From: Apostichopus japonicus
Lineage: Eukaryota > Echinodermata > Holothuroidea > Aspidochirotida > Stichopodidae
DNA length: 64,000 nt
Assembly: GCF_037975245.1 (NCBI RefSeq)
Contig: NC_092561.1
Span: 21,338,826 to 21,402,825 of the forward strand
Direction of reading: 5' to 3'
Shown: positions 17,335 to 49,100 of the stretch, piece by piece
How the letters are laid out: the number at the start of each line of letters is the position of its first letter
Numbering within the stretch: position 1 is the stretch's first letter
Notes under the pieces: model-generated
Seen by the model: only the letters and a program-made list of their open reading frames with translations
Told to the model about the DNA's origin: nothing
The model's database searches: none
Translations under genes and position numbers: made by a program

Positions 17335-17645
17335 TATGGAAGGGTGTAAGGTAGGAGGGATGTGAGGATGGAGGGATGTGAGGATGGAGGGATGTGAGGA
17401 TGGAGGGGAATGAGGATGGAGGGTTGTGAGGATGGAGGGATGAGAGGATGGAGGGGTGTGAGGATGGAGGGGTGTTAGGATAGAGGGGTGTGAGGATGGA
17501 GGGATGAGAGGATGGAGGGGTGTGAGGATGGAGGGATGTGAGGATGGAGGGATGTGAGGATGGAGGGGTGTTAGGATGGAGGGGTGTTAGGATGGAGGGG
17601 TGTTAGGATAGAGGGGTGTGAGGTTGGAGGGGTGTGAGGATGTAG
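17335..17645 (+). repeat. Minisatellite, ~15-bp GTGAGGATGGAGGGA unit
   Basis: About 20 tandem units of GTGAGGATGGAGGGG/A with variants (GAGAGGATGG, GTTAGGATGG). G-rich on the + strand, preceded by a run of nine G at 17309-17317. Confidence 0.9.
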
Positions 17646-22140: not shown

Positions 22141-23549
22141 ACTCCTACGGATACCAAGGAACTGGGTTTCTGTAAAAGAATTCTAAAAATATTCCCATTC
22201 TTAAGACGTAGTATACACAAATTTGTCCTTAGATATATCCATATGTCTGGTTGCCTGTCTGTTAGGCCATCCAAGGCAACGTTGTGTTAAAAGTTGATAA
22301 ATTTAATAGACAACAGATTGATACTTGATGGACAGGCTGTTAAAGTTGAGAGTTATTGATCTGTACAGTGACATGTACACAGTATGGTAACGCATCTTAA
22401 ATTTTCCTGCATGATCATTTTTTTTTAAAAGTGGAATTTTGTTGAAAAGTAAAAAACCTGTAACAGTATCATTTCATTTCAGATTTTCCACATCTTTTAT
22501 ATTTAACTTGATCTAGTATGTGCTGGAAAAAGATAATTACAGTTACATCACATTCTCTTTTCATGTTTAACATTCACCAAAACATGACTTGCATTGATCT
22601 ATAGAAAAATCCTGCAAAGTAAAATGAGTTGGGATATTTCCCAGGAGTGACACAGCCCCTCTAAACTTTGACCAATACTTTCAAGTGGGAATATTTCCAT
22701 GGCTTGTAGGTTTTTTATGCTGAATCATTTGTGTATTCAATATTTTATGCTTCGAACAAAGAACTTCATAAACTTTGATACTATTAAATTTGCCCCATGA
22801 AGCTGTACATAATTCCATGCAGGTAAGTCTATAAAGTTGAAGTATATTAGCCCAGGCAACTTCAGTCACTTAAGACACACCATGGAGGTAAAAAACACTC
22901 TGTTTTAACCTCCATGGACACACTAATTATGTATTCTTACTCCACTGATAGCAGTGCAGGTTTTTGTTTTTTTAATTCTGTAAACAGAGAAATTTACATA
23001 ACCACTTTCTTACCAGGCTCCTGTAAATAGTATTTGAAGAGCAAAAACAGTGTTTTTGAAAGACTTTTACAGTTTATCGTGCATACATACGGCTGCATTA
23101 TATTATAATGGACTGCTGCTAATCTATATGCCTACAGTGTATAGAGTAGTAATAGTGCACTACTGTACATTCACAGCCCATCATGATCATGCTCAAAGTC
23201 ACAATGAAACACGACTATGGCTACCTAAGTGTGGGTACAAATAGCTATATTGACTTTGTGTGCCCAGGGTCACTTTATTTAAAGTTAAATGTACCATGGC
23301 AATATTTTACTATCTTTGCTACAGTGCTCTATGTACAGAACAGTGTTCAGTGTCATGTTCATGTATGTAGCAATAGTACAAGTAAGTAATAAAGAAGTTT
23401 AGTTAGTTCCCTGATCGACCTCGCGAGAGGTTCTGGGGGATATAATAGATTTTTATCGAAGAAAAGATGGGTTTTTTGGGTTTTTTTTTTTGAGGATCAG
23501 ATATAGCAATAGTACAGTTATGACCTGACCCTCTTTTATCTTTTACCAG
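22141..23549. other. No gene seen, presumptive 5' region of the Rab GEF gene
   Basis: Contains a small inverted repeat (CCATGGAGGTAAAA / GTTTTAACCTCCATGG, ~22878-22917) and AT-rich sequence. A pyrimidine tract and AG at 23530-23549 precede the first coding exon of the next gene. Confidence 0.4.
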
Positions 23550-26500
23550 ATCCATCGCTGACAGGACTCTCATTAACCATGACAGAAATAGGAACAGACC
23601 AGTCTAATATCTTAGAAAAGAAGAAGCTCCATCCCACCATGAGAGTCAAATCTTACAGCGAGTCTCACCTGGAGAATGGAGAGGAGAGTAACAGGGAGGA
23701 TGAGAACGACAACATCCCAGAGGATGGAGACGATGTGGAAGGAGAGAAAACTGAGAGGTAGAAATAATAATTAAAAATAATTTACTTTGTAAAGTGTAAA
23801 ATCCACAAAAGTGCTCTAAATACGCTATGTAACAGCAAATAAAAAAATATATGACACAAAATATGTAGTAAAAATGCAGAATATAATACAATATAAATGA
23901 GTATGACAAATAAAAAAGCATGCACGTTTGAGTTTGTTGGAGTATTGCACATGAATAGAATGAATACACAGTTTATATATTGCAGTGATGCTGTCTAAAA
24001 AGGAAGGTTTTCAGCTTTGACTTGAATGTCGTAAGACTAGAAACAGTTCTGAGTTCAGCTGGCAGCTCATTCCAGAGGCGTGGCCCAGCCACGCAAAACG
24101 CTCTGAAATAAAAGTGAAAGAGGATTTGAGGTTATTTGTTTAGATAAATATAGATAGCAATGTGTGTATGGAAGCAGTCATAGCAGAGCAGTGCATCTCA
24201 TAGTTATGATAATGCTTAGTAACGTTAGTATGCCAGGACACCTTCACCTAAACTCCCAATACAGCACTGTGTTGTTTAAGTGTGCATACAGAACTGTTAT
24301 GTACTGAAGTAGATTGTACACCTTACTGGTCCATCCATGCTTACAGCTTAAAAGTGGGAAACATTACAGCTGGGGCTGCAGTATATCAAACTTACAGTAT
24401 AAGCCCAATTTATAATACTGCTGTAAAAGCATAACTATATTTAGGAGAAATTCAACTCTCTCTGAGTTGTGAATACAGTTCTAAGTATCTAACAAATTAT
24501 GCCATGTGGTACCTTGGGCAATTTCTGTTTATAGATACACACAGGCTACACTCTAGTTCAATAATAAAATATTTGAGCAGTACTGTAGGAGATAACATGC
24601 TGAAAATAAAATATTTGCGCAGTACCATAGGAGATAGCATGCTTTAAAGACCAACTATGGAGACTTTTCGATGAACATAAAATCCCACCATTTTGCATGT
24701 ATCTAATCCTTAACTCGCTCCAATTACATTGCTGTAATTAACTTGACCAATTTCGAAGGTTAACTACGTGAAAAATGGGAAGAAAAGTCAGCTTTTTAGG
24801 AAACGTGTTTCAGACATTCCTGAAACATTCCTAAGACATCAGGTGACAGTGGTGTAGGAAGGTACTTTTGAGTGGGGGGGGGGCTGGAAAATGATGGTCG
24901 ACCTGGGAGAGGGGTCTAAGGGGAGGGGGTGTCCCCCTCCCCTTTGGAATTTTTGGGCATTTCCAGGTGGCCTCAGATGCAATTTGGTGCAATGTAGCAC
25001 ACTTCAACACCCACTCCATCTTGTAAAAAGTTTTGCATTTTCACCTGGCCTTAGATGCAATTTGGTGCTCCAAATGAGATTTTTTTCTCATTTGGAAATG
25101 AAAAAGGGGTTTTCTGACTTGCGAAGCGGGGGGGCGGAATGATACTTCCGCCCCTCCATATTTTTCACTGGGCGGGCTGGCACCCCCCAACCCCCCCGGT
25201 TCCTACGCCCTTGTCAGGTGACCATGTGACGTCAACGTTGGTATAACGCACTCACAACAATACTTTTAGTGTGTAAAGTTGTATGTACTTGAGCTGCCAA
25301 AAACATCAACGATATTACTCCTTTTTCCTGGAAATGCCACAATTTGGTGTTGTTATACCTCAGCCAACAAAAGCATCAGCTTTTTTAGCTTTCCAAGTAG
25401 AAGAACCGACGTAAAACACTGTAGACTTTGGATCAATTTTGTGAGATCCACGCGGAAAGATTTTTCAGCACCCGGAGTATCTCATGCCCATGAGTCCACA
25501 TGCATGACCCTGCCTCTGTGTATGCTGCAAATGTCTCATTCTGAGAAACTTATATACTTTCAACAGCTGTGGCGGACATAGCTAATGTGAAATTGACCCT
25601 TTCAAGTCGCCTCGTAAACACGCCCTGGCCGTTCTTACATGTAACATTATATCACGCATATATGCAGACCGTGTACAGTACATGTATATAGACCGTGCCT
25701 ATAGGGTAGCATTGTTAGTACATGTAGTGAGTTACAACTCTCACCGGGTATGTAAATAGTCATGTTAGGATTTCATCGCATTTATCCATGTCATTTGTTG
25801 TATTCCAGTATCGTGAGTTTGTGATACATGTGTTATATTGTCCGTTATGTTTGTTCCGGCATCTGCATGGTCCAAGGAGTGGAATAAAATGGTATTATAT
25901 AGCGATTGGACGTTTTATTTTGTTAGTGACTGTCTTGTGATTGTGGGATGTTACTGGTCAAGGCCTGTTTCAACTAGACCTAACTCTATGGAATTACACA
26001 AAGTCACGGTAGTTTTTCGCCCAGGATTGAACGAGAAACGTGGATTTGGATATTCACTGCTAAATTTGGTTTATTGACAGGATACTTTTTCTGTGTTTGT
26101 ACTTTTGGATATTAAAACGAGTAAGTACTATGTTCAGCTGAAGCTTAGTCATGTATATACTACACTGGTCGATTCGGGCCAGCGTCTTTTCGTAGTTGTT
26201 CGATTATGTTTAGTGTTTTTTAGGGTAATTTGGTGGCAGTAACGTAAACCATTTTCCCGTCACATATCACGCATGAGGCATCTTTTAGGTCTATTCTTCT
26301 GTTCAGTTTGCGGTATCTTGCGATCAAAATGTATTACGGAATCGGCAAGCTGCTTGCATGTTCTACAGTATATTGTACCGTACGGACCTATTGACGCTCC
26401 GCTATGTAAACAATGCCTCCATTTGAGTGGAAATTTTGCTAATAAAATAACCCATACTACTAAATTTTCTGCTTAAAATTGTCTTAAAACTAGTTGTTTA

Positions 26501-29500
26501 CCTTCATTTGTTCTTGTTTTAAGCTAACAGCTTTTCAAACGCTCGAAATTGGAAGTCAAATACAGTACAATTGTTCGCTATCTGTGTATAAACAGTGCCT
26601 AGTTTAGCGTTTGATTTTCGCGGTATACCAATTATGACATCACACGGTGACCAGAGGCTCCTTTGGGTCAATCTCTGTTTTCAGACATTCCAGAGGTTCA
26701 TGTCACGTGACTACAGTACCCAAAATGTCCATTTTCGTGGTCGTTTTTTGATGGGTCATAGTACTTAGGAAGATTATTTTTTACACATGTTGATTATGGG
26801 TATGTTAACTCCCAAATTAATGGAAAACCCCCCCCCAAAAAGTTTGTCTCCATAGTTGGTCTTTAAATCACATATTTGAGCAGTACTATAGGAGATAGCA
26901 TGCTCTAAGTCACATAATAAGCAGTACTACGTATAGGAGGTAACATGCTCTAGTAACACAGCTCAACACAAAAACACTGGTAATGCAGCAGCTTATTTGC
27001 GCAGGGCTGAATACATCCCTTACTATGTACTGTACAGTGCATAGTCACATTATGGAGATTTGGTTTTACTCTTTAATAGCATCTAAAAAGCAAGTGCAGT
27101 ATTTCTAACCTAGACATTGTCATACTGCAGACAACTGTTGTATTTCCTATATGGTTTCTGTGATGAAATATATACCACAGCTAATATAATGACACCAGTC
27201 TGTTATATTGATAGGAAGTGGTGTTTCCTATTGATGTATGGTTATCTAGTGGAGTTGGTTACAGTGTAGTTTGTAGACTCCAGCCTATTAAATATGGTTC
27301 ATTTCATTTTTCTGCCCCATAAAGTTAATTCTGTGGGTGTTTTACATACTGATATATACCAGTTGATGAACAAGTTGATAACATGTAGAGGTACCAGATA
27401 GATGCAGTGTTGGGCATGGCATACAGTAGTTATACAGTACTGCCATACTGTTATGTACCCATCATAGCGCTTTCTAACATGTACAGGTACTAGATAGATG
27501 CAGTGTTTGGGTATGGCGTACAGTAGTTATAATATACTGCCATACTGTAACATGTTATGTACCCATCATAGCAGCATAGCGCTTTCTAACATGTACAGGT
27601 GCTACAGTAGATAGATGCAGTGTTTGGGTATGGCGTACAGTAGTTATAATATACTGCCATACTGTTTACATGTTATGTACCAATCATAGCAGCATAGAGC
27701 ATTCTAACATGTACAGGTACTAGATAGATGCAGTGTTTGGGTATGGCGTACAGTAGTTATAATATACTGCCATACTGTAACATGTTATGTACCCATCATA
27801 GCAGCATAGCGCTTTCTAACATGTACAGGTGCTACAGTAGATAGATGCAGTGTTTGGGTATGGCGTACAGTAGTTATAATATACTGCCATACTGTAACAT
27901 GTTATGTACCCATCATAGCAGCATAGCGCTTTCTAACATGTACAGGTGCTACAGTAGATAGATGCAGTGTTTGGGTATGGCGTACAGTAGTTATAATATA
28001 CTGCCATACTGTTTACATGTTATGTACCAATCATAGCAGCATAGAGCATTCTAACATGTACAGGTACTAGATAGATGCAGTGTTTGGGCATGGCATACAG
28101 TAGTTATAATATACTGCCATACTGTAACATGTTATGTACCCATCATAGCAGCATAGCGCTTTCTAACATGTACAGGTGCTACAGTAGATAGATGCAGTGT
28201 TTGGGTATGGCGTACAGTAGTTATAATATACTGCCATACTGTTTACATGTTATGTACCAATCATAGCAGCATAGAGCATTCTAACATGTACAGGTACTAG
28301 ATAGATGCAGTGTTTGGGCATGGCATACAGTAGTTATATACTGTACTGCATGCCATACTGTTTACATGTTATGTACCCATCATAGCAGCATAGAGCATTC
28401 TAATATGTACAGGTACTAGATAGATGCAGTGTTTGGGTATGGCGTGCAGTAGTTATATACTGTACTGCATGCCATACTGTTTACATGTTATGTACCCATC
28501 ATAGCAGCATAGAGCATTCTATTGTGTCACTTGCTGTACATACTCTTCCGTAGTACAAAATGAAGGATACTGTGAACTTAATGGAATATCAAGGAAGGTT
28601 GCCTTAATGAGAGATGCTCAGTACAGTACACAAGTTATTAAATTAAATTTATTGCATTTCATAGTAAAGTTAACCTAAGGTGGCATCATGTTGGTTGTAA
28701 ACTATAACTCCATTATGACAACATTGTTCAGCATGTACAATACTGTGTACAGTAGTTTAGTTATCCTTTACTATGGATTTGCATTACATGTTAGCAGTAC
28801 AGTTTATCAAGACATGTATTGAGCTCTCACACAAACTCATACGGTTACACATTACCAAATGTTCTGAATTGATTGACACAGATTTACAAGAGTGTTGCTA
28901 CTCAAAATTACCAAGTATTTCTGCAAATAGAATTCAGCGTCCTACTTTCATAAACAACAACATGAAGTGGTGAGAGAAGTACCACCTTGAGTGATACATA
29001 AAGTTAACATACTGTACTGTACAATGAACTGGCCTAGATACCTCAACCAGACACAAACCTTGCACTTTGAAACAGCATCGCAAATCACCTCAATGTGTAC
29101 AGTTAGATCATACAGACAGTAATGTATGTATACCAACGACGACATAGTGGAACGTTGGTCAAATAGCTAAACAATAATATTTGCTTTTATGTAGCGCTTT
29201 ATACCAGCGATAGGTCTCAAAGCGCTTTACAGACGTTATATTACCCCTGGTCAATGATAACCTGTCCCAGAGACAATCCCTCCAGTCGGCATCAGTTATA
29301 TACTGCGCCCAATGACAAGTTACCTCATAGGTACCCATTTAACCCCTGGGTGGAGAGAGGCAAGTGAGATAAAGCATCTTGCCCAAGGACACAACGTAAT
29401 GAACTAGGCATGAATCGAACCAACAATCCTTGGATCACGAGTCTGACGCCTTAGCCAATTGGCCACCACACTCTCTAAACCTACAGACTTACCAGAACAG

Positions 29501-32500
29501 TACTAGGACATTTCATTGTCTCATGGTAGAGAAACCTTTTGAAGTGTCTTGCAAAAATGCTGACAGTGATATTAGGGAAAGTATAAGGGGGTGGGGGGGT
29601 GGGGGGGTTGGTACTGGGTACATTCACTAGGTCTCCTGCTTCTCATCCTATGTGATGTGTTAAAGTTTGTACACTGTCTGTCTGTGATGTGAATCTAAAA
29701 TCAAGACAAGTCAGAGTGAATAATATAATTTTTACAATCTAACACAACTAGTGACACTAATAGAATGGCCAGGTTTCCAGGGTCTTACATAACATGCCAT
29801 CAGTACTGTAGTATGATTAGTTCAAAAGTACTGTACTGTATTTGATATCTCTTGTTACATTTTTTTTCAGGATATCTTAATTTGGTATATTTAGTGTGTT
29901 GAGTTCAAGGGTCATTCTTCAATTATTCAATGCAACTTTTATGTAAATTTCTAGAGCAGACATTGACTTTTTTCCACAACTATGAAGTATATATATTACA
30001 TCTTGTTAACTTGTTACATTTTTCTTTTGACTCTATATTCTCCTCCTCTGTTGACTCATTATTTACGGCTATCAAGTATATTACATCTTGTTAACTTGTT
30101 ACATTGTTCTTTCGACTCTATATTCTCCTCCTTTTGTTGACTCATTATTTACGGCTATCAAGTATATGACATCTTGTTAACTTGTTACATTGTTCTTTTG
30201 ATGCTATATTCTCCTCCTTTGTTGAATCATTATTTACGGCTATCAAGTATATTACATCTTTTTATTACTCTTTTTAAACTTGTTACATTTGTCTTTTGTC
30301 AGTGATCAGGACCAGTACCACGAGGACCAACCTCTAGGGTCACCTAGAAGCCCAGTCGGTAGAACAGCCAGTATCTCTTTGGATGAAATGAGAGCGCATG
30401 CCTTTGAAAAATTGCAAGAAGAGTTGATGAAGGCTCAGGAGGTATGGCAATGTACTGTCATTCTATCCAGATATGTGTATAAGCTGAGGACATGAAAGTA
30501 TTCAGGTGCAGTGGTGGAGCTAGGGGTATTGGTCAGGGGGGCGAGAAAGGTCTGTAGGGGCGCTTTGACACTATCTTAGAGAAGCCCCACCACAGGTTGG
30601 CGCGGAGCGTACAGATATTTTATGAGTAAAGATACTCCCTAGATCTCCGGAAATGACCCTTTTTCGGGCCTTGCTTATTTGCAGATAAACGAAGAATAAA
30701 TAGGTTACATCGCCATTTTGTCAGAAAATTGCACCAAAAAGGTATTTGAGAGCGCGATAAAAAAGTCAATCGCGAATAAGTAAAAAGTGGTAAAAAGCTG
30801 AGAAGGGCGCCAGCAGTCCACTTGAGTCCGTCAGGGGGGGGGGGGCATCCGCCCCCTCTGACTGTATGGATGCTCCGCCACTGTTCAGGTGTTGTTAGCT
30901 CGATGTCCTTCTACCAAAAGTCTTCCACTGATTAACATCGGCTCCTTTCTCACTTACCATCGACATATATGCTCTTTCCCTTCTATATCCTAAACCACAA
31001 ACGTAATGGGTACCACTTGGCACTGTACTGGGTTTGCCCTCTGACCCACTTTGGGGTCACCATCGTCTTTCCCTAAGATGAAAAAAAAAGAGAAGAAAAC
31101 AGAGAGAGTAATTGATCACATCGATAAAAGAGAAAAATATGAAAAACAGAGAATAAACAGACAAAGAAGAGAGAAAAAATAATCTGCTCGATATTTTTAT
31201 TCCATTTTCACAATTGCACAAAAGTAAATTGGGACATTCTGCTAACTATTCTTATATTGTACATTCTGTACAGTACATGTTTTTGGAGGTAAAATGAGTT
31301 AAAGACCACATTGCAATATAGGAGGATTACATGAGTCGAGCAAACATTAAGCATGGAACATCTAGGAATATTTGGTAATTGACCTGTGATGTCCAGTTCT
31401 TCAACCATCTGGTGACATCACATTCTGCATCCCACAAGATCCACTTAATGTTACTGTTCCATGCTCTGCATGAAATCAATCAAGTGAGATGTTACAGCTA
31501 CTGTAGGATCGTATGATCGTCCGTAGTCATTAATTAATGAACTGTCAACCGTTAATCCACGACACATTAGGGAATTCCAGTCGATGGGATGTTGTCGAGT
31601 GTGGTGAATTTAAAGGAGTAACATCTTTTTCTTTGTTATCTAAATTGATGAACTTTTTCATCTTTTCAGGCTTTGGAACTAAAGGATGAACAGGTTTCTA
31701 AACTTTCTAAAGTTAGAGATGAGATGGACCAAGAAATAGTAGAGCTGACTGCAAATCTGTTCCAGGTAGGTGTCCTAACCACAGAATGTACTTAAACTAT
31801 ATAGTAATAATTTATACAATAACAATAGTTGTCATGACAACTATTGTTATTGTTTAAATAATGCCCTGCAGGGATGATTATTCATATTCTTTTGATTCAC
31901 TGCTTGTCTTTCTAATAATAATAATAATGGACATTTATAATGCGCCGGTATCCGTCAAATAAGACGCTTATGGCGCAGTGACACAAACAGTGCGACAGCA
32001 AAACAAAAACAGTAAACATAGTACAAGACAAAAATGCAAGCAAATATGGGCAACAGTGAACGATTAGTTAAACAGTTTTCATCAGATGAGTCTTGAGAGA
32101 GCGCTTGAAAGAAGCAAGAGGTGGACTGTGTTTTACATGTTCTGGAAGGCTGTTCCACAGAGAAGGAGCAGCAGCAGCAAAAGCTCTTTTGCCCCATGAT
32201 CGATTTGAGCAATTTTTCACACAGAAGTAATTTATTGTGTGATCTCATGAAACTACGATTTGCGTGAAATGCTTGCAGAAGTTCTGACAAGTAGAATGGC
32301 GAAGTTCTAACAAAATAGCGATATGTGAAAATCAATATTTTAAAAATAAATTCGGTCTTTGATCGGAAGCCAGTGTAATTCTCTCAGAATATGTGTGACA
32401 TATTCCCTTGGCTTGGAACGAATGACAATTCTGAGACTTTTTCAGGCTATAAGTATACTGTAAGTAAACTGTTAATTCTTCTCTGTTTGCCTGACTTAAA

Positions 32501-35500
32501 ATAAGTCCACTATTCTTCCTCAAATGCCAAACAAGAACAAATACAGCGGTCGCATGTTTTTCAGCTCTCAAGCCTCTTTACTCCTGTAACTACTGCCTCT
32601 TGATAATATTCCTCAATGAGAGATCAAATTGCTTTAATTTACTTCACTTTCTCAACTAACTGTCTCCTCACAACATTAGCACACTTGCTCTGCTATGTCT
32701 ATAGTGAAGTGGTAACCTTTTTAGCACTGTACACCCATAGCGTCCTTGTTTTGAGTCTCATTGTATTGGAACTGCTTTTGGGGAAGAAACTGTAGTAAAG
32801 GGATTAGATGCATTCTATGATCATATATATAGTAGCAATACACATAAACCTAGGCTCATAGGTAAGGATTGAGAGAACATAGGCAATGTTTTAGGGCTAG
32901 TTATTGCAGAGATTCCTTGGAATTTAACTGGAATGGCAGGACACCACAGCCACTTTTCAGTTTTCAAAAGGGAACCAAAATTTTTGGAACAAACTTGAAA
33001 GGGCACCAGGGCGTTTTTTCTAAAAAGTGAGAGAAAACATTTGAAGACATGACAGTAATACTGTGTGTTGATTAAAATGGCAGTTCTTAGGATCAGTAAT
33101 TTTCGTTGGCATTTCAATAACTGGTTGGGGCACTGATGGCTGTTTCCCGGCCATTAATTCCAACTCTGAGATAAGGCTGTAATCTGAATGAATATTTTTA
33201 GACCTGTCCTTGTAAATGTTGGTAAGTAAATGTAACAGTAATATAGAGATACAACATTGCATAGAATGTTCTTTTATTTGTTCGGATTGATAAGCAATTT
33301 TCTAATATTTTTTTATGTATCTTTTGTATGTATCTTTACCTTTTGTACGTCCGTCCCCCTTCTCCAGTTTATTCCCTACCCCCTTCCCTTAATCCTCTCT
33401 TTGTCCCTCCACTGTTTATCTCCTACTGTACCTCTCCTCTTTCCCTGTTGGTTTCTTTCTTTCTTCTCTCCATCCCTTGTCTACTAATCCTCTTACATCT
33501 ATCTCTTTGTGTTCACCATGCTCATTAACCTGTCTGTATTCTGTCATTTCTGTGCGTGTTTTTGTCCCGTCTTTTACTGTTACTTGTCATTTAGCCTTTG
33601 AAGAAGATCCTGCTAGGATTGAAAAGTCAGGCCAACTTACTTTTACACATTCACTTACACAGGCTCTCTAGTGGATAAGCAGTTTGCTAACAGTTTTATT
33701 TTATTTTATTTTCCAAAATAAACAGGAAGCACATAAGATGGTGAATGAAGCAAATGTAGGCCAAGCTGGAGCTCAGAAACTCTTAGAAGAGGCCAATGGA
33801 AAGGTAAGATATGACACATTAAAGGTCATAGATGTGATATCATAGGTAGACTAATACATTTTCAATCGAACGTGTTCCTTCAGTTATTCCTTATAAGTGA
33901 AAAGTTCCAAGTATAAGAGACAGTTGTAGCTGCTGCAACTCTTCTATTGGAGAGAGTGTCAAAGTTGGTTGTTATGGATTGATAAATATTTTTATATTTC
34001 CTCTTGTAGCCGAGCACAATCAGTAAACAGATGTTCAGCTTGTGTGTTTGAAATGCTTAATATAAAGGCAGATATAGTCTTTCATGCTTAACTTAACTTA
34101 TACAGCTGTGAAGGATTAAAATGGGAAATATATTTGTACTCACCTTATGTGGCTCACTGTATTGAAAACAAGGCCCGGGAGGTGTCCATGTATCGGTCCT
34201 AAACATTTCATTTATGTTCATAGATTGAACTCTTTCAGACAAAATTAGGGAACATTGAAAGCTGAAATAAATATCCAATGCAAGCACACCAAGCAGTAAG
34301 ACAATAGATAGTTAAAGAATTTGTTTGTTATATTAGTCTCTAAGACAATAGATAGTTAATTACCTCGTTTGTTATATTAATCTCGACAGATTGAAGTCCT
34401 CCAGGCAGAGGTACAAGCATTAAAAGCTTTGGTGATAACGTCCACCCCCAGCACACCCAACAAACAATCGGACAGTCACAATAAGATGTCTCTCTTACGT
34501 AGAAGGAAGAAGAACAACCCGAGCCATCATCGTAATCATAGTCTAACCGGACCGATAGGGGACTATCCAGATGGGACCGCATCTCAGATGAATGGCAATA
34601 GTCCAGATTCTGAAGGAGCCCAGCAACAGAAGGAGGTGAGTCATATCAGTAGAAAATAACTTTGAAATATTCGTTCAAACCATCCCATTAAAACCTTAAC
34701 AAAAAAGATGCTTTGTTGAGAGAGTGGACTAACTATTTGATCCATTGTTATTTGATCCATTGTTGTCTTTCAGGTGGACTAACTATTTGATCCATTGTTA
34801 TTTGATCCATTGTTGTCTTTTAGGTGGACTAACTATTTGATCCATTTTTATTTGATCCATTGTTGTCTTTCAGGTGGACTAACTATTTGATCCATTGTTA
34901 TTTGATCCATTGTTGTCTTTCAGGTGGACTAACTATTTGATCCATTGTTATTTGATCCATTGTTGTCTTTTAGGTGGACTAACAATTTGATCCATTTTTA
35001 TTTGATCCATTGTTGTCTTTTAGGTGGACTAACTATTTGTTCCATATTGTCTTTCAGGTGGACTAACTATTTGATCCTTTGTTATTTGATCCATTGTTGT
35101 CTTTCAGGTGGACTAACTATTTGATCCATTGTTTTTGATCCATTGTTATTTGATCCATTGTTGTCTTTCAGGTGGACCCACTGTTTCTACGAGACCTTCA
35201 GACTTGGCGTGAGAGTCCAACACTTCACAACGATAGTTCTTTCATGAATGGAATCTTCTTGGAGGATGTTCGTCCGTGTCTAAACTTCCCGTCTCAGGAG
35301 ACTTCTGCAACGCTCCAAGAATGTGTAGCTGTGAATTATCTATCTATAGAACCAATCAGTGGCAAGAGCTCGTTTCCAAGGTAACATTTTAAATAATGCA
35401 GAAGAAATGCACTCCTGTCATATTGAGCATACAAGCTCATTTGTAATCAAAAGTATATATCGATGTTGCGGTCGGCTCCTTTTCCAGAAGGAAAAGTTAG

Positions 35501-38500
35501 ATAATTCTTTGCGTTCTTTCTTAAGGTAGTAAATAAATTATTCAAAATGATTTAGTTCCCTTAATAACTATTAAGATAGTTCTATGAAATCATTCATAAT
35601 TTGGCCAAAGTGGATAATGTAATGTTCCCACAGTTTAAAGGTTTTTCATAACTCCCAAACTTGAAAGTAATTTAGTCATTTAATGATTTCCAAGGATTTG
35701 TTGAAGGGTATGAGATATGCATTGAAAACCAAAGTAATGTTTCTATCTTAAAATTCTCATCTAATACACAAGTTTTGTCTGTATCTGTTGAGACACACTT
35801 CTTTAATGTGAACAGCAATAGTACCCTTGTGTGCATTATTCATTATTATATCACATATATCTTTAATGCTAACAGCAGTAGCACCCTTGTGTGTGTTATT
35901 CATTAGTATATATATCTTTAATGCTAAGAGCAATAGCACCCTTCTGTGTGTTATTCATTAGTATATAACATATATCTTTAATGCTAACAGCAGTAGTACC
36001 CTTGTGTGTGTTATTCATGAGTATATCACATATATCTTTTAATGCTAACAGCAATAGCACCCTTGTGTGTGTTATTCATTAGTTTATCACATATATCTTT
36101 AATGCTAACAGTAATAGCACCCTCGTGTATGTGTTGTTCATTAGTATATCACATATATCTTTAATGCTAACAGCAATAGCCCCCCTTCTGTGGGTTATTT
36201 ATTAGTATATCACATATATCTCTAATGCTAACAGCAATAGCACCCTTGTGTGTGTTATTCATTAGTATATCACATATATCTGTAATGCTAACAGCAGTAG
36301 CACCCTTGTGTGTGTTATTCATTAGTATATCACATATATCGTTAATGCTAACAGCAGTAACACCCTCCTGTGTGTTATTTATGATCATATCACACACATT
36401 GTAGTAATATATTTATTCATCCATACCGGAGGGTTGTCTTATTAATTATGAGTTCTACTTTGACACCTTTCACTGAACCTCAACTGACCAAACATTTCCT
36501 TGTTTTTATTTTACAGACGCTGTAGTTTAACAGATCAACAGAGACCGTGCAGATATCGAATCAAGCTAGGCGACTCAGACTCCTGGATTAATATTTGTTC
36601 TGCGGCTAGAGACAGGGTGAGAGAGAGATATTGGTATTGTACTTAATATGTACTTAATATGGTCCAGTTTGGAAGAAGAAAAGTTGTAAGACCTAATTGG
36701 CTAATTATGATCCAATCGATGTGAAAAGTAAAGTCAAGCCTTGTTTGCTGTCGTTACTAAGCTGTTAGTAATACCTGTGTAGCCCCCTCTATTGATAAGT
36801 GTTGCTATGCATACATATGAATATGGTTTGTGTAACCTTGGCTGAACAGTGTACATACAATAGGTGTCAAGGTGCTAAGTAATGATATGAGTAGGTTTAC
36901 AGGGCAGCAGGACGGGTGAATGGTTCTGTATTCTATCCTTCATACATACACTTGACTGTATTCCTTCATACAGAACAGATATTTGTCAATGCTTATTCAA
37001 CGACTAAAATCTTTAACACCTTTCGCAGGATACCTCAATGCCCTAGATATATGTGTCCAATATCCGGCCTAGAAATTCATAATTTTATTTGCTTGCTAAA
37101 GAATTGACAGTGTATAATAACACTACTGGCCAAAATCAACATGCTAGTTTGCATTCTTCTTGAATTAATACAAAGATAACAATAAATTTGCACTGGCAGA
37201 CACATGCATTGGGTTTTTCCCCTCGTCAAATGTTGAAATCCACCGGCATTGAGCCAGTAAATTACCAGAATCTTGAGGCCTGCCAGTGGGTCTGTTTCCC
37301 ATATCATGGGGTCTGTACCTGTTTAGACTGGATGTGTGTTATCATTTACAGTGGGTTTGTTTCCCATATCATGGGGTCTGTACCTGTTTAGACTGTGTGT
37401 GTTACCAATTACAGTGGGTCTGTTTCCCATATCATGGGGTCTGTACCTGTTTAGACTGGATGTGTGTTACGAATTACAGTGGGTCTGTTTCCCATATCAT
37501 GGGGTTTGTACCTGTTTAGACTGTGTGTTACCATTTACAGTGGGTCTGTTATCCATATCGTGGGGACGGTACCTGTTTAGACCATGTGTGTGTGTTATCA
37601 TTAACAGTGGGTCTGTTTTCCCATATTGTGGGGTCTGTACCTGTGTAGGCCATGTGTGTGTGTTATCAGTAACAGTGGGTCTGTTTTCCCATATTTTGGG
37701 GTCTGTACCTGTTTAGACTGGGTGTGTCCTTTAACATATCCAGTGGGTCAGTATTTCCCATCTGTGTTGGTATCTTCCCATTGGTTTGGCCTGTTCATGT
37801 CAACATGCATAGCCCGGCTTGTGTGGATCAGTTGGTCTGCGTTGCCCGGCTTGTGTCGGTCAGTTGGTCTGAGTAGCCCGGCTTGTGTCGGTCAGTTGGT
37901 CTGAGTAGCCCAGCTTGTGTTGTCAGTAGGTCTGCGTAGCCCAGCTAGTGTCGGTCAGTAGGTCTGGGTAGCCCGGCTTGTGTGGGTCAGTAGGTCTGCA
38001 TAGCCCGGCTTGTGTCTGACAGTGTTTCCTTAGTTTTTCATTAGTTTTGTTTGCCTACCTTCTTTTCGTTGTGCCTACAATTTTATAACTGATTGCTTGC
38101 ACTTCATTTATTATATAACATTGTATATGACGTGAACACTGTATCTCTGGATACAGTGCTTAGGAGGTATACAGTGGTCAGTTTGAAGAATTCAAACAGA
38201 AAAATAACTGAGATTAAGCAGAATATTAAATGACCATGTTGTTAGCTATTTTATTTTTAATTTTGTTTCCTAGATTGCTGCTGTTTGTAACTATTACACC
38301 TACCTGAGATACATCCAACAAGGTCTGGTCAAAAGTGACTGTAAGTTGAAAAAATGAGATTCATATATATATATTAAACATTTAATAGTCATATAAAACA
38401 ACAGGATATTAAAAATATTAGCATGCCTTCTTTTGTTGTCTGCTGATATTTCATAATGAATGTTAACTATTCCATATAAACAATGACACTAATGTTCAAC

Positions 38501-39571
38501 TGCTGATATTTCTACAAGAATGAAAAATAGAACTCACCACTTTTATCAATATTTAAGATCTGGTGAGATCCCTTGTCAATTTTAGACTTGCTTAAATCTA
38601 AAATGATGGATGTGAATGAACATAACATCCTTTTCCCCAAGAACAAAAAAATAAAAAATCGGACCTGTTTGAAAGTATTTGTCATTCCCCAAACATAAAA
38701 ATCGTACCTGTTTGAAAAGGAGTTTTCTTTCCCCAAATAGCAAAAATCTTACCTATTTGAAAGGGTTTATTCTTTCATAAGAGAAATACCTGCATGTCAC
38801 AGAGTAATGATGACCTTTGGGGTTATTTGACATTCTTAATGGAAGTCTTTTGCGTAAGAATCTGGTAAATTTCAGATCCCCTTTGAAACTAAAAGATCCA
38901 ATAACTGTGCAACTCATTACCATATCTAGTCAACTTTTATTTGAAATGATGAAGGCAAAATAATGACCTCTTTTCCTATTCCTGTTTACATTTTGTTTAT
39001 TTTTAATGCCCATTTTGCAATGTGTCTAGAAAACAAAGATTTTGGTGTTGAATGGAATCATAAACATACATTCAATAAACATATCATCGAGGGAGTCTAA
39101 GGTTGGTTAATTGCAGCATAATGACCAATAAATGACCAATAATTGACAGTTTTGCTGTAAAATCAGAAATTGATGAAATAAGCACTGGTATGTATGTATG
39201 TACGTATTTTAGATTCTCCTGCAAGCAGGAACTCGCGAAGAAGCCTCATTGGCTTATCAAAGCCGCAAGCTGACCGAAGTCAGTCTCTTACATTCATATT
39301 TAACGTCCGTGATTATGAATTGTCAAATGTCAACAACTCTGTAACTGGACGACATACATTAATCTTGGAGTGACTCGAACCGGGGACCTTACGATTGGAA
39401 GGCACCGGCACAAGGCACCGGTTATTGCTATGTAAAATAATTGTATGATCTGGCACTGTTGGTATTTAATGTTGTTTTTTTTCTGTTCTAACTGCAGTGA
39501 ATGAGATGTACTGGGAAATTATACGTCTGCGTAAGGCCATGTCTCTTGCCAAGCTGGGTCTGCCTGAATGA
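23550..39571 (+). CDS. RAB3IP/RAB3IL1-like: Rab3-interacting / Rabin8-GRAB type Rab8 guanine nucleotide exchange factor
   Basis: Nine coding exons: 23550-23757 (ATG at 23579), 30303-30441, 31670-31765, 33726-33803, 34390-34635, 35172-35380, 36517-36616, 38274-38340 and 39498-39571 (TGA). All have GT/AG junctions and join in frame to 1188 nt, 395 aa plus stop, between human GRAB and Rabin8 in size. Residues ~75-180 form the Sec2-type coiled coil that catalyses GDP/GTP exchange on Rab8-class GTPases: LKDEQVSKLSKVRDEMDQEI, ELTANLFQEAHKMVNEAN, KIEVLQAEVQALKALV. The C-terminal half has the conserved family blocks DPLFLRDLQTW, CLNFPSQE, YRIKLGDSDSWINI, YYTYLRYIQQGLVKSD, and the terminal MYWEIIRLRKAMSLAKLGLPE (21 aa; 39504-39568). 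The family acts in exocytic and ciliary vesicle traffic. The N-terminus is acidic and serine-rich. Upstream non-coding exons were not identified. The intron before exon 35172 carries a splice-site-derived array (separate entry). Confidence 0.95.
23960..24125 (-). repeat. Degenerate interspersed repeat fragment
   Basis: Contains TTTTCAGCTTTGACTTGAAT, GGCAGCTCATTCCAGAGGCG and CACGCAAAACGCTCTG. The same layout (late-encoded 'cagatgagtcttgagagagc ... gttccacagag ... aaagctcttttgcccc') appears at 32080-32200. The two are probably members of one old repeat family widespread in marine invertebrates; I cannot name it. Confidence 0.45.
24644..26866. mobile_element. 2.2-kb TTAA-flanked non-autonomous DNA transposon
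   Basis: Terminal inverted repeats read TTAAAGACCAACTATGGAGA at the left and the complement of that (TCTCCATAGTTGGTCTTTAA) at the right, with TTAA at both borders as a presumed 4-bp target duplication. Internal short frames (25838-26077, 26273-26476) do not resemble a transposase I know, so it appears non-autonomous. It interrupts a tandem repeat and itself contains a hAT-type MITE, which orders the insertions: tandem repeat, then this element, then the MITE. piggyBac-like assignment rests only on TTAA. Confidence 0.78.
24847..25213. mobile_element. hAT-like MITE with perfect 8-bp TSD
   Basis: Left end CAGTGGTGTAGGAA pairs with right end TTCCTACGCCCTTG. Flanking 8-bp direct duplications TCAGGTGA (24839-24846 and 25214-25221) are identical. 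CAGTGG-type ends plus an 8-bp duplication are the hAT hallmark. 367 bp, no transposase. Confidence 0.9.
27379..28520 (+). repeat. Minisatellite, ~115-120-bp unit
   Basis: About ten units with the core AACATGTACAGGTACTAGAT, then AGATGCAGTGTTTGGGTATG, then GCGTACAGTAGTTATAATAT, then ACTGCCATACTGTAACATGT, then TATGTACCCATCATAGCAGC. Two unit types (GTGCTACAGTAGATAG and GTACTAGATAG) alternate, giving a higher-order pattern. Lies in the first intron of the Rab GEF gene. Confidence 0.92.
29171..29474 (-). mobile_element. tRNA-derived SINE, second family
   Basis: On the minus strand the element opens with GTGGCCAATTGGCTAAGGCG (box A type) and has GGTTCGATTCATGCC (box B). The body contains a CCTTGGGCAAGATGCTTTAT block and ends in AAAGCGCTACATAAAAGCAA followed by an ATT-rich tail. 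The family resembles SINEs common in invertebrate deuterostomes; I do not assign a name. Confidence 0.75.
29990..30270 (+). repeat. ~87-bp tandem repeat adjoining a splice acceptor
   Basis: Three to four units with CTTGTTAACTTGTTACATTG, then TTCTTTTGACTCTATATTCT, then CCTCCTTTTGTTGACTCATT, then ATTTACGGCTATCAAGTATA, ending just before the acceptor at 30302. The real acceptor tract (ACTTGTTACATTTGTCTTTTGTCAG|T) matches part of the unit, so the array includes duplicated pyrimidine-tract sequence, but the upstream units lack the AG. Confidence 0.85.
30509..30883. mobile_element. hAT-like MITE with perfect 8-bp TSD
   Basis: Left end CAGTGGTGGAGC pairs with right end GCTCCGCCACTG. Identical 8-bp flanks TTCAGGTG lie at 30501-30508 and 30884-30891. 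375 bp with a G-rich right interior and no transposase. It inserted 67 bp downstream of the splice donor of Rab GEF coding exon 2. Confidence 0.92.
31816..31853. repeat. Perfect 38-bp palindrome
   Basis: Two exact 19-nt complementary arms with no spacer, centred on TCATGA between 31834 and 31835 (right arm TGACAACTATTGTTATTGT). It lies 50 bp downstream of the splice donor at 31765 in the Rab GEF gene. Confidence 0.9.
31911..32345 (-). repeat. Interspersed repeat related to 23960-24125
   Basis: Begins with (AAT)n, then GGACATTTATAATGCGCC and CTTATGGCGCAGTGACACA. The later part (GTTCTGGAAGGCTGTTCCAC, AAAGCTCTTTTGCCCC) shares layout with 23960-24125. The 126-aa minus-strand frame over it is not a recognised protein. 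Confidence 0.5.
32346..33590. other. Intronic sequence, no gene seen
   Basis: Intron between Rab GEF exons ending at 31765 and starting at 33726. It includes a long pyrimidine-rich stretch at 33345-33490. Confidence 0.5.
33593..33632 (+). repeat. 40-nt GATCCTGCTAGGATC motif (hammerhead-like layout)
   Basis: Reads AGCCTTTGAAGAAGATCCTG then CTAGGATTGAAAAGTCAGGC. Arms GCCT...AGGC enclose a GATCC-TGCTA-GGAT hairpin flanked by TTGAAGA and GAAA. Related degenerate copies lie on the minus strand at 11963-12003 and ~45267-45302. The order of stem, CUGANGA-like box, stem and GAAA box resembles a hammerhead ribozyme of the kind carried by Penelope-like elements. The first core base differs, so activity is doubtful. 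Confidence 0.45.
34724..35171 (+). repeat. Splice-site-derived 50-bp tandem array before Rab GEF exon 6
   Basis: The unit is GTGGACTAACTATTTGATCC, then ATTGTTATTTGATCCATTGT, then TGTCTTTCAG. It repeats about nine times; AG dinucleotides after a pyrimidine tract end at 34773, 34823, 34873, 34923, 34973, 35023, 35057 and 35107, and the true acceptor ends at 35171. Each unit holds a branchpoint-like CTAAC, a TTGTCTTTCAG or TTGTCTTTTAG acceptor and the first six bases of the exon (GTGGAC). The true exon continues GTGGACCCACTG; every decoy continues GTGGACTAA. In the phase used (0) a decoy acceptor would add Val-Asp-stop. Whether decoys are used is unknown. Confidence 0.93.
35785..36405 (+). repeat. 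Minisatellite, ~60-bp unit
   Basis: About ten units with the core TATATCTTTAATGCTAACAG, then CAATAGCACCCTTGTGTGTG, then TTATTCATTAGTATATCACA, in the intron between exons ending at 35380 and starting at 36517. Minus-strand frames across it are artefacts. Confidence 0.92.
37265..37740 (+). repeat. Minisatellite, ~60-bp unit
   Basis: About eight units with the core CAGTGGGTCTGTTTCCCATA, then TCATGGGGTCTGTACCTGTT, then TAGACTGTGTGTGTTACCAT. The repeated FPYHGVCTCLD-like frame is an artefact of the array. Intron before the exon at 38274. Confidence 0.92.
37800..38025 (+). repeat. Minisatellite, ~33-bp unit
   Basis: About six to seven units of GCCCGGCTTGTGTCGGTCAG then TTGGTCTGAGTA, directly after the 60-bp array but unrelated to it in sequence. 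Confidence 0.9.
38640..38770 (-). repeat. Short tandem repeat (~55 bp, 2.5 units)
   Basis: Units share AAATCGTACCTGTTTGAAA followed by CATTCCCCAAACA. Intronic. Confidence 0.7.
39195..39425 (-). mobile_element. tRNA-derived SINE-like element, third family
   Basis: The minus strand contains AGGTCCCCGGTTCGAGTCAC, a box B motif, and ends near a GCGAGTTCCTGCTTGCAGGA block followed by a TACGTACATACATACATA tail. It sits in the last intron of the Rab GEF gene. Confidence 0.55.
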
Positions 39572-43349: not shown

Positions 43350-44152
43350 AGAGTGTTTCTTGAGACATTTGTCTGTCTTTGAGGCATCAGACATTTGTCT
43401 GTCTTTGAGACATCAGACATTTGTCTGTCTTTGAGGCATTAGACATTGTCTTTCTTTGAGACATCAGACATTTGTCTGTCTTTGAGACATACATTTGTCT
43501 GTCCTTGAGGCATCATACATTTGTCTGTCTTTGAGACATCAGACATTTGTGTGTCATGAAGACATCAGACATTTGTCTGTCTTTGAGACATCAAACATTT
43601 GTCTGTCTTTGAGGCATCAGGCATTTGTCTGTCTTTGGGACATCATACATTTGTCTGTCATGGAGACATCATACATTTGTCTGTCTTTGAGACATCAGAC
43701 ATTTGTTTGTCTTTGAGACATTTGTTTGCCTTTGAGGCATCAGACATTTGTCTGTCTTTGAGACATCAGACATTTGTCTGTCTTTGAGGCATTAGACATT
43801 GTCTGTCTTTGAGACATCAGATATTTGTCTGTCTTTGAGACATCAGATATTTGTCTGTCCTTGAGGCATCATACATTTGTCTGTCTTTGAGACATCAGAC
43901 ATTTGTGTGTCATGAAGACATCAGACATTTGTCTGTCTTTGAGACATCAAACATTTGTCTGTCTTTGAGACATCAGGCATTTGTCTGTCTTTGAGACATC
44001 ATACATTTGTCTGTCTTTGAGACATCAGACATTTGTCTGTCATGGAGACATACATTTGTCTGTCTTTGAGACATCAGACATTTGTTTGTCTTTGAGACAT
44101 TTGTCTGCCTTTGAGGCATCAGACATTTGTCTGTCTTTGAGACATTCGTCTG
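43350..44152 (+). repeat. Minisatellite, ~26-bp GACATTTGTCTGTCTTTGAGAC unit
   Basis: About 30 units of AGACATTTGTCTGTCTTTGA then GACATC, with GAGGCATC, CATGGAGACATC and CATACATTTG variants. Stretches around 43490-43660 and 43850-44010 repeat the same variant order (including the rare GTGTGTCATGAAGACATC), showing block duplication of about 370 bp. It is not a CRISPR: there are no unique spacers. Confidence 0.92.
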
Positions 44153-45360
44153 TCTTTTTCTCTGTTGTTAATGACTTACAACCTTTCCAGAGGAACTTAG
44201 AATGTTTGAGTTTTATAAACACAGTACATTTACACTTCTGTTGGTTTCAGTTCTGAAGAAAGTCACTTTTTATTGGCAAACCATGAGCATGTGATTAAGT
44301 ACAATGAAGTTACTATGCATAGTATTTGGATTATAAAGAGGTGCTGAATAGATTAAACATGTTAGATTTATATATATACAGAACAAAACATATTGATAAT
44401 ATATATTATTATATATGCAACCAGGTATGCATGCCAAAAAATAAAGATTCTTGTTTCATATTTTCATCAAGTATATATATTTTTTCTGTTCTTTATTTCA
44501 TGTTTGACAACAACTTTTCCACATTGTTAAGATATAAAAATAGTAGAAATAAAAGACCACAACTCAATTCATTCTTGTTAATACTTCTATCTATTGGTGC
44601 TTCTGTATGTATTACATATAGAGTAACACTTGTGCCGATGTGGTTTGTGGGGGGGGGGGGGGGAGAAGAGGGATGGAGATGGGAGATCTTACACATTCAT
44701 TTATCCATTATTATGCAGCACGACCAATATTGTGATATTTCTGTGTTAGTTCAATATTGTTATATTTTTCCTTCCATTCCCCACTTTTTGTAACTTTTGT
44801 CTAGATTTTCAAGATACATTTTATCCTACGGTTTTCCTGAGTGTGTCCTGGAAGCCTGTGCGGAACTCCATCCCCCTCAACCCCCCCCCCCCATCTGCCT
44901 CACTCCCCTGTACATTTAGTATGTTAAGTTTGAATTTACGAACTTCCCACAGAGGATGCAGTACTTAACAAATTAGTTTCACCAGTCGGCAAAACTACAA
45001 GTAAAAGACTAAAGTATATATATATTACTGAATAAATAATGTAGTTTATGCTGATTATAGGTTATGTTTAGCTATCTACTGATAAAATTTACATTGTAGT
45101 AATACATAATAGAGTTATATTCGTATTGCTTTCATGAATACCTTGTACATGTATCTAAAATATGACTCATATATAGAAAAGAGCATAAGAGAGATAAGTT
45201 GTTAATAAACTGTATATCTACCACAGAAAGCTTATGTGGGTAAATATATATATATAAATGTTAGAATGCCTGACGTTTTGATCCTAGCAGGATCAAATGC
45301 GAAACGTATGAAAACAGAGTAGGGACATTTTTGTTTGCTTACAACTTATTTCTTTCACAT
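44153..45360. other. No gene seen
   Basis: AT-rich sequence with a G homopolymer at 44648-44662, a C homopolymer at 44881-44892 and a degenerate GATCCTAGCAGGATC motif near 45267-45302. The 155-aa frame 44326-44793 has no recognisable domain. Confidence 0.4.
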
Positions 45361-46128: not shown

Positions 46129-49100
46129 TTACTTTCGTATTAACAGCCATTTTCCAATCCTCGGAAAGCTGTTACCACTGGATTTATCGCATCCGTATAG
46201 CTCTAAACAAGCTTCGTTGACTTCGTCTGGCAAATTAATCACTATATCTCTAAACTTTGAATCAGAATCATCTACTCTTACCGCTTTTTGGTAAGAAAGA
46301 TTTTCGCGCCCATTTGCTTCTACTAATTTTCCAACGATAGTTAAGTTTTTCTTTTTCCCAAGGGCGAGTTTCAAAGTATGTTGACCGTTTGGTATATTGA
46401 CCATTGCATCGCAAGTCATTGAAAGGTCTAGTGCTTTGAAGTCGTCCCAACTTGGACCCCAGGAATCATCACTTGGTGGAAACAAGTCACCGTCGTATCC
46501 TTTCGAGCAGACGACCAACCACCGCATTGCCAGCGTTTGACGAATGAAGAGATGCAGGACATAAAATCCGGCTTCGTCGATACGGAGAGAAACGCTAGAC
46601 TTCTCCAGGTCGTTTTTACCAAAGTTTGAATGGGCGAATATCAGTTGCGACGATTTTTGAAATTTGTCAGAGTTGATGTCGTTAAGAGTAAATTTGAGGG
46701 GACAGTTTGATTGGAACGGTCGAGTTATAGCTAAAGAACCTTCGCCCTTTGTAAGTCTGATGTAAGAACTCTTATGACTCACACATTTCACGTTACTTTC
46801 ATAATATATACCTAAAGGGTTCCATTTGATTCCTTCTGGAAACACTGGATTGGTGTCACTTGACTGTCCTGTGAAATGAATCATAAACACGGCAAACTGT
46901 GTGTACTGACCGGACTTGGGATCGTTGTGGAAGTATACGTAGTACCAACCTGCTCTTGGTAAGTGAATGTGGAAGGCATGCTTCCCCTTTAACCTCTCGT
47001 GGTACATTCTGTTTTTCAGAGCGACTGTCGGCTGATTTTCAGTGCTCAGTTTTGCAAGCAGATCACCATCTTTAGGACATGAATATTCAATGACGACCCT
47101 TTCCGTAGAAGTCTCTATAATTGGTTTTGTGTGACTTACACACGCAAACCCTTTCAGAACGTCCGGCGGCAAACTACCAAAACGTCTTTTATTCAAGGGT
47201 GTGTTTCTCTTTGCTGATTGGCCAATGATAGTATACGTCACCAGTTTATCGTGCATTTCAGATCCTTCACTGGCAGTGCTTGCGTTAAGCGTCTTTGTAG
47301 CGTACACGTCTAGTTTATACGTACCAGGGCCAGGCAATCGCACATGCAAAGTTATCTTGTTATCCTTCCAGAAGTGCATCACTTGATAACCGATATCTTC
47401 TTTAAAATCTGTAGATTTTGACGTTAGAAAGTGTTGAATTGAACCAAGAACTTCCATCTTAAGATTAATATCTATTTCGTTTTTCTCGTTTGCATGAAGT
47501 ACGCCCTCTCTCTGAGTAAGTGACACCTTCATGACGTACATCATGGGCCCGATCTTAGGAGACAAATTCCAGCTTTCCAGTGATTGGTCCTTCTGTCTAC
47601 TTGTGGTCTCTGATTGGTCGTTTGGGAGGTGAGTGTTCTCGAAATGATTCGGTTCTGCTAGAAACCAATGTTCCCTCCATTCTTTAGTGTATGTATTGGT
47701 TGACTTACCTATATATCGAAAGAGAACGAAAACATCATAATATGAAAATATTTGATGACTGACATCTATAGACTCAAAAGTAAGACTAAAGAAGCCTTCG
47801 CAGAACAACCTCTTAGCATGCTTAGTCCTAAGATGGAAACGTAAGGTCCCTTAACTATCATGTATTTACCTGCACATGATGTTATTACTAGATGAGTATT
47901 TTGTTGACAGTGTTTTCTCTACAAGAAAGCAAACTTGCCTGCATAAATTATACAGGAAATTATTCAACACAGTGCATAAGGTGAGGAAGTGAGCAGCCGG
48001 CATGGCTTTCGAAATTTTATCCGGCGTGCGAATTATGCCTACCTGGCGTCCCACAAATGCGTGAATGGGAGGCTGTCGTATCTATGTACGGTGTGCGAGA
48101 AGGACAGGGGAAATGGGGGAGGTGTTATATCTACTAAATTCTTTGACCAGGCGTTTTTGTATAAATTAAATAAAGCTTAAACAAAATAATATCATTTAAA
48201 TAATCATCATGCTAATTCATAAACAAAATTATTTAGGATACAACCATGGCAACGATAAAAAAAAAAAACATTGTTTCCTCGCACTGAGCATCAGTCCTCT
48301 GACGTCAGATATGTGTCAATATGTTCGCGGCTGTCTCAGTGTCTATAGTTCTGTGTTATGATCTTTGAATGAATACTACAGGAAGCCAATAGTGAAACAT
48401 TTCACCAAAATTGTTGAAACAGCGAGCTGCATATACAATAAACGCAAGGACTCGCATTCTCACATAGGCCTACACATGCAAAGCGACACATAAATATGCT
48501 GAGGCAACATCCTAACAACAATCATGATTCATTTGAGAGTGACGCAGTTAAATCACCTGATCAACATAAAAAAGGAACGCAAGGACTCGCAAGCACGTGC
48601 GCACATATGCACAGCGACACACACATAATACTGAGACAATATCCTAACAACAATCATGATTCATTTGAGAGTGACGCAGTTAAATCACCTGATCAACATA
48701 AAACAAGAAACGCACGGACTCGCAAGCACGTGCACACATATGCACAGCGACACACAAATAATGCTTTAACAACAATCATGATTCTTCTGAGAGTGACACA
48801 GTTAAACTACTTTATCAACATAATTAGCCAATATTCAGGCTAACGCCCGCTCATAAATATTGCAATGAGATATAGATATACAAAAACGAGCAACACCCAG
48901 CAATCTTCCACCATCCTAAACTTGAAGATTTGATGCTCAATAAAATAAACTTGATTTAATGTTTTTCTGATTTCTTACGGCAGATTAGACTACATGTAGG
49001 CTACACCAGATAAAACAAACACATTGATATGTTGGAAAATTTGCTAATTCTTTCTCTCTCTCGAAAAATACAAAGACGAAAGTTCAAATGAGAGAAAAAA

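Follow-up and report, generated by a model that had tools for sequence, protein, structure and literature searches.

Where a row of nearly equivalent acceptors lies ahead of a single exon, which AG does the splicing machinery use? The question is raised by intron 5 of a Rabin8/RAB3IP-like gene of the holothurian Apostichopus japonicus, in which a minisatellite repeats the intron/exon junction and places eight acceptor-like copies before the true site. The locus offers a clean natural test of how a 3' splice site is chosen, for all eight copies carry the same branchpoint-like motif, four of them carry the same 31 bases around the AG, and the true site is set apart from these four almost only by its position relative to the exon. 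The AG that is used would tell exon definition from scanning from the first branchpoint and from re-splicing, an in-frame stop marking every error. The case also bears on the rise of intron ends and of new introns by slippage. Throughout, the window is the whole stretch of DNA that was analysed (64,000 nucleotides, positions 1-64000).

The host gene and the exons that flank the array are as follows.

23579-39571, plus strand: Rabin8/RAB3IP-like coding region, nine coding exons in a joined gene model
23579-23757, 30303-30441, 31670-31765, 33726-33803 and 34390-34635, plus strand: coding exons 1-5
35172-35380, 36517-36616, 38274-38340 and 39498-39571, plus strand: coding exons 6-9
34390-34635, plus strand: exon 5, ending in phase 0 with ...QQQKE246; donor GAG/GTGAGT
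34636-35171, plus strand: intron 5, 536 nt, of which 448 nt are the tandem array
35172-35380, plus strand: exon 6, 209 nt, beginning with VDPLFLRDLQTW..., the tenth GTGGAC; donor at 35380

Exon borders and the start codon were chosen by eye, aided by a human sequence, and the product of the nine joined exons is a 396-aa open frame with GT/AG borders. Its N-terminal half matches PDB entry 6f6p, the coiled coil of the human Rab-3A-interacting protein (E=1.4e-29), while from exon 6 onward it matches 4uj3 and sister entries of the same human protein (E=1.4e-37), which are presumably complexes with Rab11. The Rabin8 C-terminal domain (Pfam PF25555) is matched with E=4.3e-28 and starts at the exon 5/6 border; the Pfam Sec2p model reaches only 22.2 bits, under its cut-off of 28.5. 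By these matches, the host is a Rab GEF of the Rabin8/RAB3IP/RAB3IL1 type, with a Sec2 coiled coil and a Rabin8-like C-terminal domain. Protein homology is present on both sides of the array, and the frame runs through the 35172 junction and is otherwise intact. According to the coordinates of the gene model, its longest intron measures 6545 nt. An acceptor-like CTTTTACCAG at 23540-23578 lies 29 bp before the assigned start codon, so that an extra exon upstream of it is possible.

The array itself is composed of the following elements.

34724-35171, plus strand: minisatellite of nine units (six of 50 nt, then 34, 50 and 64 nt), each GTGGAC + TAAC + T-rich stretch + (C/T)AG
34724-34729, plus strand: leftmost GTGGAC, its left flank being unrelated DNA with no match to the unit tail by eye; proposed partner in the founding slippage
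34772-34773, plus strand: decoy AG 1 (CAG), first of eight
35024-35057, plus strand: short unit of 34 nt, with a single inner 15-bp repeat, 25 nt from CTAAC to AG and the best acceptor score of the series
35108-35171, plus strand: last unit of 64 nt, ending at the true acceptor, 55 nt from CTAAC to AG

GTGGAC occurs ten times, at 34724, 34774, 34824, 34874, 34924, 34974, 35024, 35058, 35108 and 35172, the tenth copy being the start of exon 6, and the units thereby follow in the order 50, 50, 50, 50, 50, 50, 34, 50 and 64 nt. After the first decoy, the further decoy AGs end at 34823, 34873, 34923, 34973, 35023, 35057 and 35107, and that of the true site at 35171; GTGGAC marks both limits of the array exactly. 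An initial annotation of this DNA had described a 50-bp unit, a length which holds for seven of the nine units, the remaining two measuring 34 and 64 nt; the composition that it gave for the unit, namely a CTAAC, a pyrimidine tract with AG and the first six exon bases, recurs in all nine, with the exon copy at 35172. The branchpoint-like CTAAC is formed where GTGGAC meets TAAC (9/9 units), the T-rich stretch holds one to three copies of a 15-bp repeat, and the units end with CAG in six cases and with TAG in three. A 50-nt unit comprises 44 nt of intron type and 6 nt equal to the start of exon 6, the following exon base being different. Each unit border also reads AG/GT and might be spliced again, a feature that had not been considered in the initial annotation.

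The two top-scoring TRF rows for the array have scores of 595 (period 50, 34724-35045) and 687 (period 150, 34724-35147, 2.9 copies). Only 9 substitutions distinguish the units in 448 aligned nt; none of them falls in an AG or a CTAAC, and three are at the tolerant -3 position. Variants are common to units 3 and 6, and a -3 variant is common to units 2, 5 and 6. Since so little has changed, the fact that AGs and CTAACs are intact is no argument for selection on the units. The structure, the frame, the acceptor signals in common and the block period can be taken from the DNA sequence directly. The array as coding sequence was ruled out, the 50-nt unit being no multiple of three and the exon frame stopping at once. 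That the unit belongs to a dispersed family was likewise rejected: other copies of it in the 64-kb window amount to short weak matches (E 0.02 or worse), and a search of viral_contigs with an exact 30-base piece of the array returned 0 stretches.

As to the origin of the array, the simplest history would be one in which the intron had a GTGGAC of its own, and this copy and the one that opens exon 6 took part in slippage or unequal exchange; it is favoured because the leftmost GTGGAC abuts unrelated DNA and only six exon bases are common to the units. Before the array arose, GTGGAC would have been present as a 6-bp direct repeat, with one copy immediately ahead of the branchpoint and the other opening exon 6. 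An event of slippage or unequal exchange that involved both may then have duplicated the last ~44-50 bp of intron 5 plus the intron/exon junction, and growth to nine units would have proceeded partly via duplication of a three-unit (150-bp) block, as the period of 150 and the variants common to units 3/6 and 2/5/6 suggest. The earlier claim that the array was made by duplicating the junction can be retained insofar as the boundary is duplicated, yet with only six exon bases in common the export of exon sequence would not necessarily be needed. The small number of substitutions indicates that the array is young or homogenised.

What, then, distinguishes the true acceptor from its copies? Eight near-perfect acceptors do precede it, as had been claimed: over the last 25 intron bases and the first 6 exon bases, four of the eight are identical to the true site, three differ from it by one base (TAG for CAG) in the same 31 bases, and the decoy of the 34-nt unit matches it at 22/31 bases, ungapped. 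Acceptors and donors were scored in bits with a human weight matrix. On this scale, the true acceptor and the CAG decoys of the 50-nt units both reach 8.71 bits, the TAG decoys 7.60 and the decoy of the 34-nt unit 10.84, above the true site; the gene's other acceptors range from 4.24 to 14.72. At the true site the branchpoint-like A is 55 nt from the AG, farther than in any decoy (41 nt in seven and 25 nt in one). Given such scores and the shorter CTAAC-to-AG distances of the decoys, nothing local favours the true site, and most decoys are locally about as good. The exon that results is of a different length, for it measures 209 nt up to the donor at 35380 only with the true site and 273 to 607 nt with the decoys; the first decoy would leave a compact 138-nt intron. 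A looping-out of the array by RNA structure found no support and was rejected, the fold of intron 5 being less stable than those of its mononucleotide shuffles (z +1.6 for 60 shuffles).

The consequence of decoy use had been anticipated correctly. The phase-0 end of exon 5 falls after codon 246, and each of the eight decoys, read in frame, yields E246-V-D-stop; the decoy product would keep the exchange (Sec2) coiled coil and lose the C-terminal region, the PF25555 domain included, which starts at that very border. By the usual rule of nonsense-mediated decay (NMD), an mRNA whose stop codon has introns downstream is degraded. NMD would be expected for the decoy products, if this rule applies, because three introns follow the decoy stop.

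Could such a series of copies ahead of an acceptor be due to chance? As a control, all AGs between positions 600 and 63900 were considered, a near copy being defined as 28 or more of 31 bases within 500 nt upstream. Outside arrays, 0 of 2,975 AGs have even one near copy (best 24 bases), whereas the true acceptor has seven. Of the 757 AGs that arrays contain or that directly follow them, 440 are preceded by one near copy or more. Seven or more are counted for 26, which are the true acceptor and 25 AGs of two other arrays (17336-17642 and 43363-44157). Repetition in itself is thus nothing unusual in the window, and the special point is that a junction of the gene model is repeated. The window (GC content 37.7%) is minisatellite-rich, with 53 TRF rows and, after a hand merge, 23 intervals that make up 15.4% of its bases. 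The merge omitted the short rows 1049-1090 and 33309-33337, the latter being in intron 3 and outside the count of nine arrays in the gene; coverage is 9,836 bases without the two rows and 9,913 with both. With the nine intron arrays of the gene placed randomly, an acceptor AG is reached by one or more of them in 6.4% of trials, so that touching an acceptor is only mildly surprising in a repeat-rich stretch. As for a second junction array, the other seven acceptors and the eight donors of the gene model have no close copy within 2 kb (best 21/32 bases).

Three of the nine arrays in the gene, that of intron 5 included, end at most 45 bp from an acceptor, against 0.32 expected (P=0.003 in 20,000 random placements, the 45-bp limit having been set after the distances were seen), and a threshold-free test gave KS P=0.21. 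The idea that arrays generally favour the 3' ends of introns was dropped, given this KS value and the post hoc limit. Two arrays lie close to other acceptors of the gene: a 44-bp unit in two copies (34297-34384) stops 5 bp short of the exon 5 acceptor (34389), the AG of which is not duplicated, and an 85-bp unit in 3.2 copies (29992-30264) stops 38 bp short of the exon 2 acceptor (30302). The 85-bp units carry a pyrimidine-tract-like stretch (best 21/32 bases around the junction) and, by eye, are without an AG at the matching place.

Splice sites multiplied within a minisatellite are not peculiar to this gene. By the title of Turri et al. 1995, the minisatellite of an interferon-induced transcript, the gene of which is said to be IFI6/6-16, reportedly provides multiple splice donor sites; going by that title one splice site is multiplied as here, but it is a donor and not an acceptor. 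In amphioxus, tandem repeats across exon-intron boundaries have been described and named 'mirages' in Adh3, and are present also in the globin genes BflGb6 and BflGb9 (PMC3087553). PGBD5 has been added as a case, with troponin C cited, accurate splicing being held undisturbed (PMC3902484). Mirages are reported not to interfere with regular splicing (PMC3087553, PMC3902484), and one of the two papers allows that the extra AG/GT signals of the amphioxus arrays could serve as cryptic sites. The likeness to the Rabin8-like array is one of structure, that is, a minisatellite-like tandem duplication of an intron/exon boundary in units with splice signals; in BflGb6, as here, the 3' end of the intron and the 5' part of the exon are repeated. 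Units are mostly 50 bp here, against 150-160 bp in BflGb6, 157 bp in BflGb9 and 10-72 bp in Adh3 (PMC3087553). The gene is a different one and every decoy here is an immediate stop, while the PGBD5 repeats are imperfect (PMC3902484) and the mirage cases described in these texts come from cephalochordate genomes.

By its structure, the tandem junction repeat is of this already-described kind, a 'mirage' minisatellite, here in a Rabin8-like gene. Its tandem units are of minisatellite length (34-64 nt, 448 nt in total) and span the intron/exon boundary, the junction lying at the edge unit of a gene model that is intact as judged from sequence; the known mirages are characterised, in addition, by length polymorphism and somatic instability. 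Searches of the literature on tandem-duplicated splice junctions did not name the gene, and no array of such kind in a Rabin8 gene is described in the passages that they brought up.

Two further systems invite comparison. The VNTR in intron 18 of human ABCA7 is a minisatellite with a 25-bp unit that begins with a splice donor, and retention of one unit leads to a frameshift and a premature stop; this retention amounts to 2 +/- 1%, on one reading of the word 'respectively' in the source, and is unaffected by VNTR size (PMC5954066). It differs from the present array in lying on the donor side, in its shorter unit and far longer arrays, and in that length acts on exon 19 skipping and not on unit retention (PMC5954066). 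In potato RdRp, an intron was gained by tandem duplication across an intron-exon boundary which, as here, crosses the 3' end of the intron and the start of the exon, so that a branch site, a pyrimidine tract and a 3' site are all included (PMC4974935); that duplication, however, created a new intron that is used, while here there are many short units without a new exon.

Taken together, the array is probably a mirage-type minisatellite that grew by GTGGAC slippage, with the exon-nearest AG used via exon definition, decoy RNA going to NMD, and no dedicated function. Exon 6 would be recognised as a whole, over its 209 nt and together with its donor at 35380, whereby the exon-nearest AG would be chosen; occasional use of a decoy would yield E246-V-D-stop RNA, to be cleared by NMD. 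I infer normal splicing to the exon-nearest AG, NMD of the decoy RNA and the absence of a dedicated function. To judge by related cases, splicing would pass over most of the copies; the array is most likely recent and nearly neutral. Against this reading, local signals do not favour the true site, the decoy of the 34-nt unit even scoring higher, and under intron definition the first decoy, with its 138-nt intron, should win.

If intron definition did prevail, an early AG would be used in most transcripts, and the gene would be largely silenced or would produce mainly a 248-aa GEF-only protein. The short intron that ends at the first decoy and the equality of decoy and true signals are in line with this outcome, which is nevertheless very unlikely: frame and splice sites are otherwise intact over the nine exons, as expected for a gene still in use, and introns of up to 6545 nt are long for intron definition. 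The initial annotation had suggested a splicing rheostat, in which unit number sets the share of V-D-stop transcripts and length polymorphism tunes the Rabin8 level or that of a GEF-only isoform. Such a device would be served by the eight acceptor copies that precede the true one, each with its CTAAC and each leading to the same stop. Splicing can also depend on an intronic VNTR: in ABCA7, longer VNTRs bring more skipping of exon 19, so that a neighbouring VNTR could in principle have a tuning effect (PMC5954066). Yet amphioxus arrays of the same structure are reported to leave regular splicing undisturbed (PMC3087553, PMC3902484), and the ABCA7 isoform with a retained repeat unit is constant across array lengths (PMC5954066); the units bear no sign of selection either, though 9 substitutions afford little power. 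The rheostat thus finds no support and is improbable. It is, lastly, extremely unlikely that the array is an assembly artefact, with a wrong unit number or built from the reads of two haplotypes. Such arrays are hard to assemble, and that of BflGb6 appeared mis-assembled in the draft amphioxus genome (PMC3087553), but here the units differ by variants of their own, which are arranged in orderly blocks, and at both flanks the limit of the array is clean.

A different answer would be that decoys are used and then corrected. Each CAG/GTGGAC border would act as a zero-nucleotide exon, acceptor and donor in one, so that splicing to a decoy would rebuild a donor, GAG/GTGGAC, from which splicing would continue to AGs further on, as far as the true exon. 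AG/GT is found at 9/9 unit borders, and the recursive sites of Drosophila are likewise 3' and 5' sites juxtaposed around AG/GT (PMC6110457). The predicted U1 pairing of the CAG border is -7.6 kcal/mol, stronger than that of four of the eight gene donors; of the 1132 GTs that the gene span contains, 24 do as well, array borders and real donors included. Moreover, donors regenerated at exon junctions, though weak, are capable of activity once the exon junction complex, EJC, is lost (PMC8184009). With the human matrix, the donor at the unit border scores 4.77 bits (CAG) or 3.30 bits (TAG), the border acceptor being fair. The rebuilt donor, however, scores 3.85 bits with the same matrix, below all eight real donors (4.41 to 11.18). 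Its predicted U1 pairing of -6.2 kcal/mol is weaker than that of seven of the eight, with 60 of 1132 GTs as good, and lies inside the range of the real donors (-5.4 to -13.7 kcal/mol). The normal exon 5/6 junction reads identically, so that exon 6 too would be at risk from an active site, and in flies the EJC represses such re-splicing (PMC8184009). The known fly cases have strong motifs and lie in very long introns (PMC6110457), whereas nine candidate borders with weak donors are contained here in an intron of 536 nt. Stepwise re-splicing is therefore decidedly improbable; if true, the intron would be removed by a ratchet, the poison stop would never reach the ribosome, and it would be explained in general why mirages with AG/GT units leave splicing undisturbed. 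Use of the exon-nearest AG via exon definition remains the preferred reading.

Other features of the window were noted along the way. Rfam and tRNA (ARAGORN) scans of the whole window gave 0 matches, among them none for a stretch of intron 8 (39215-39430) that, by eye, is a candidate tRNA-derived SINE-like element on the minus strand. Downstream of the Rabin8-like gene, minus-strand exons at 46132-50483 belong to a KY-like gene. While seven other ORFs tested alongside had no family match, its 573-aa ORF contains Ig-like_KY domains (PF23265, E=2.6e-32), and its 80-aa ORF matches the transglutaminase-like core (PF01841, E=1.7e-05).
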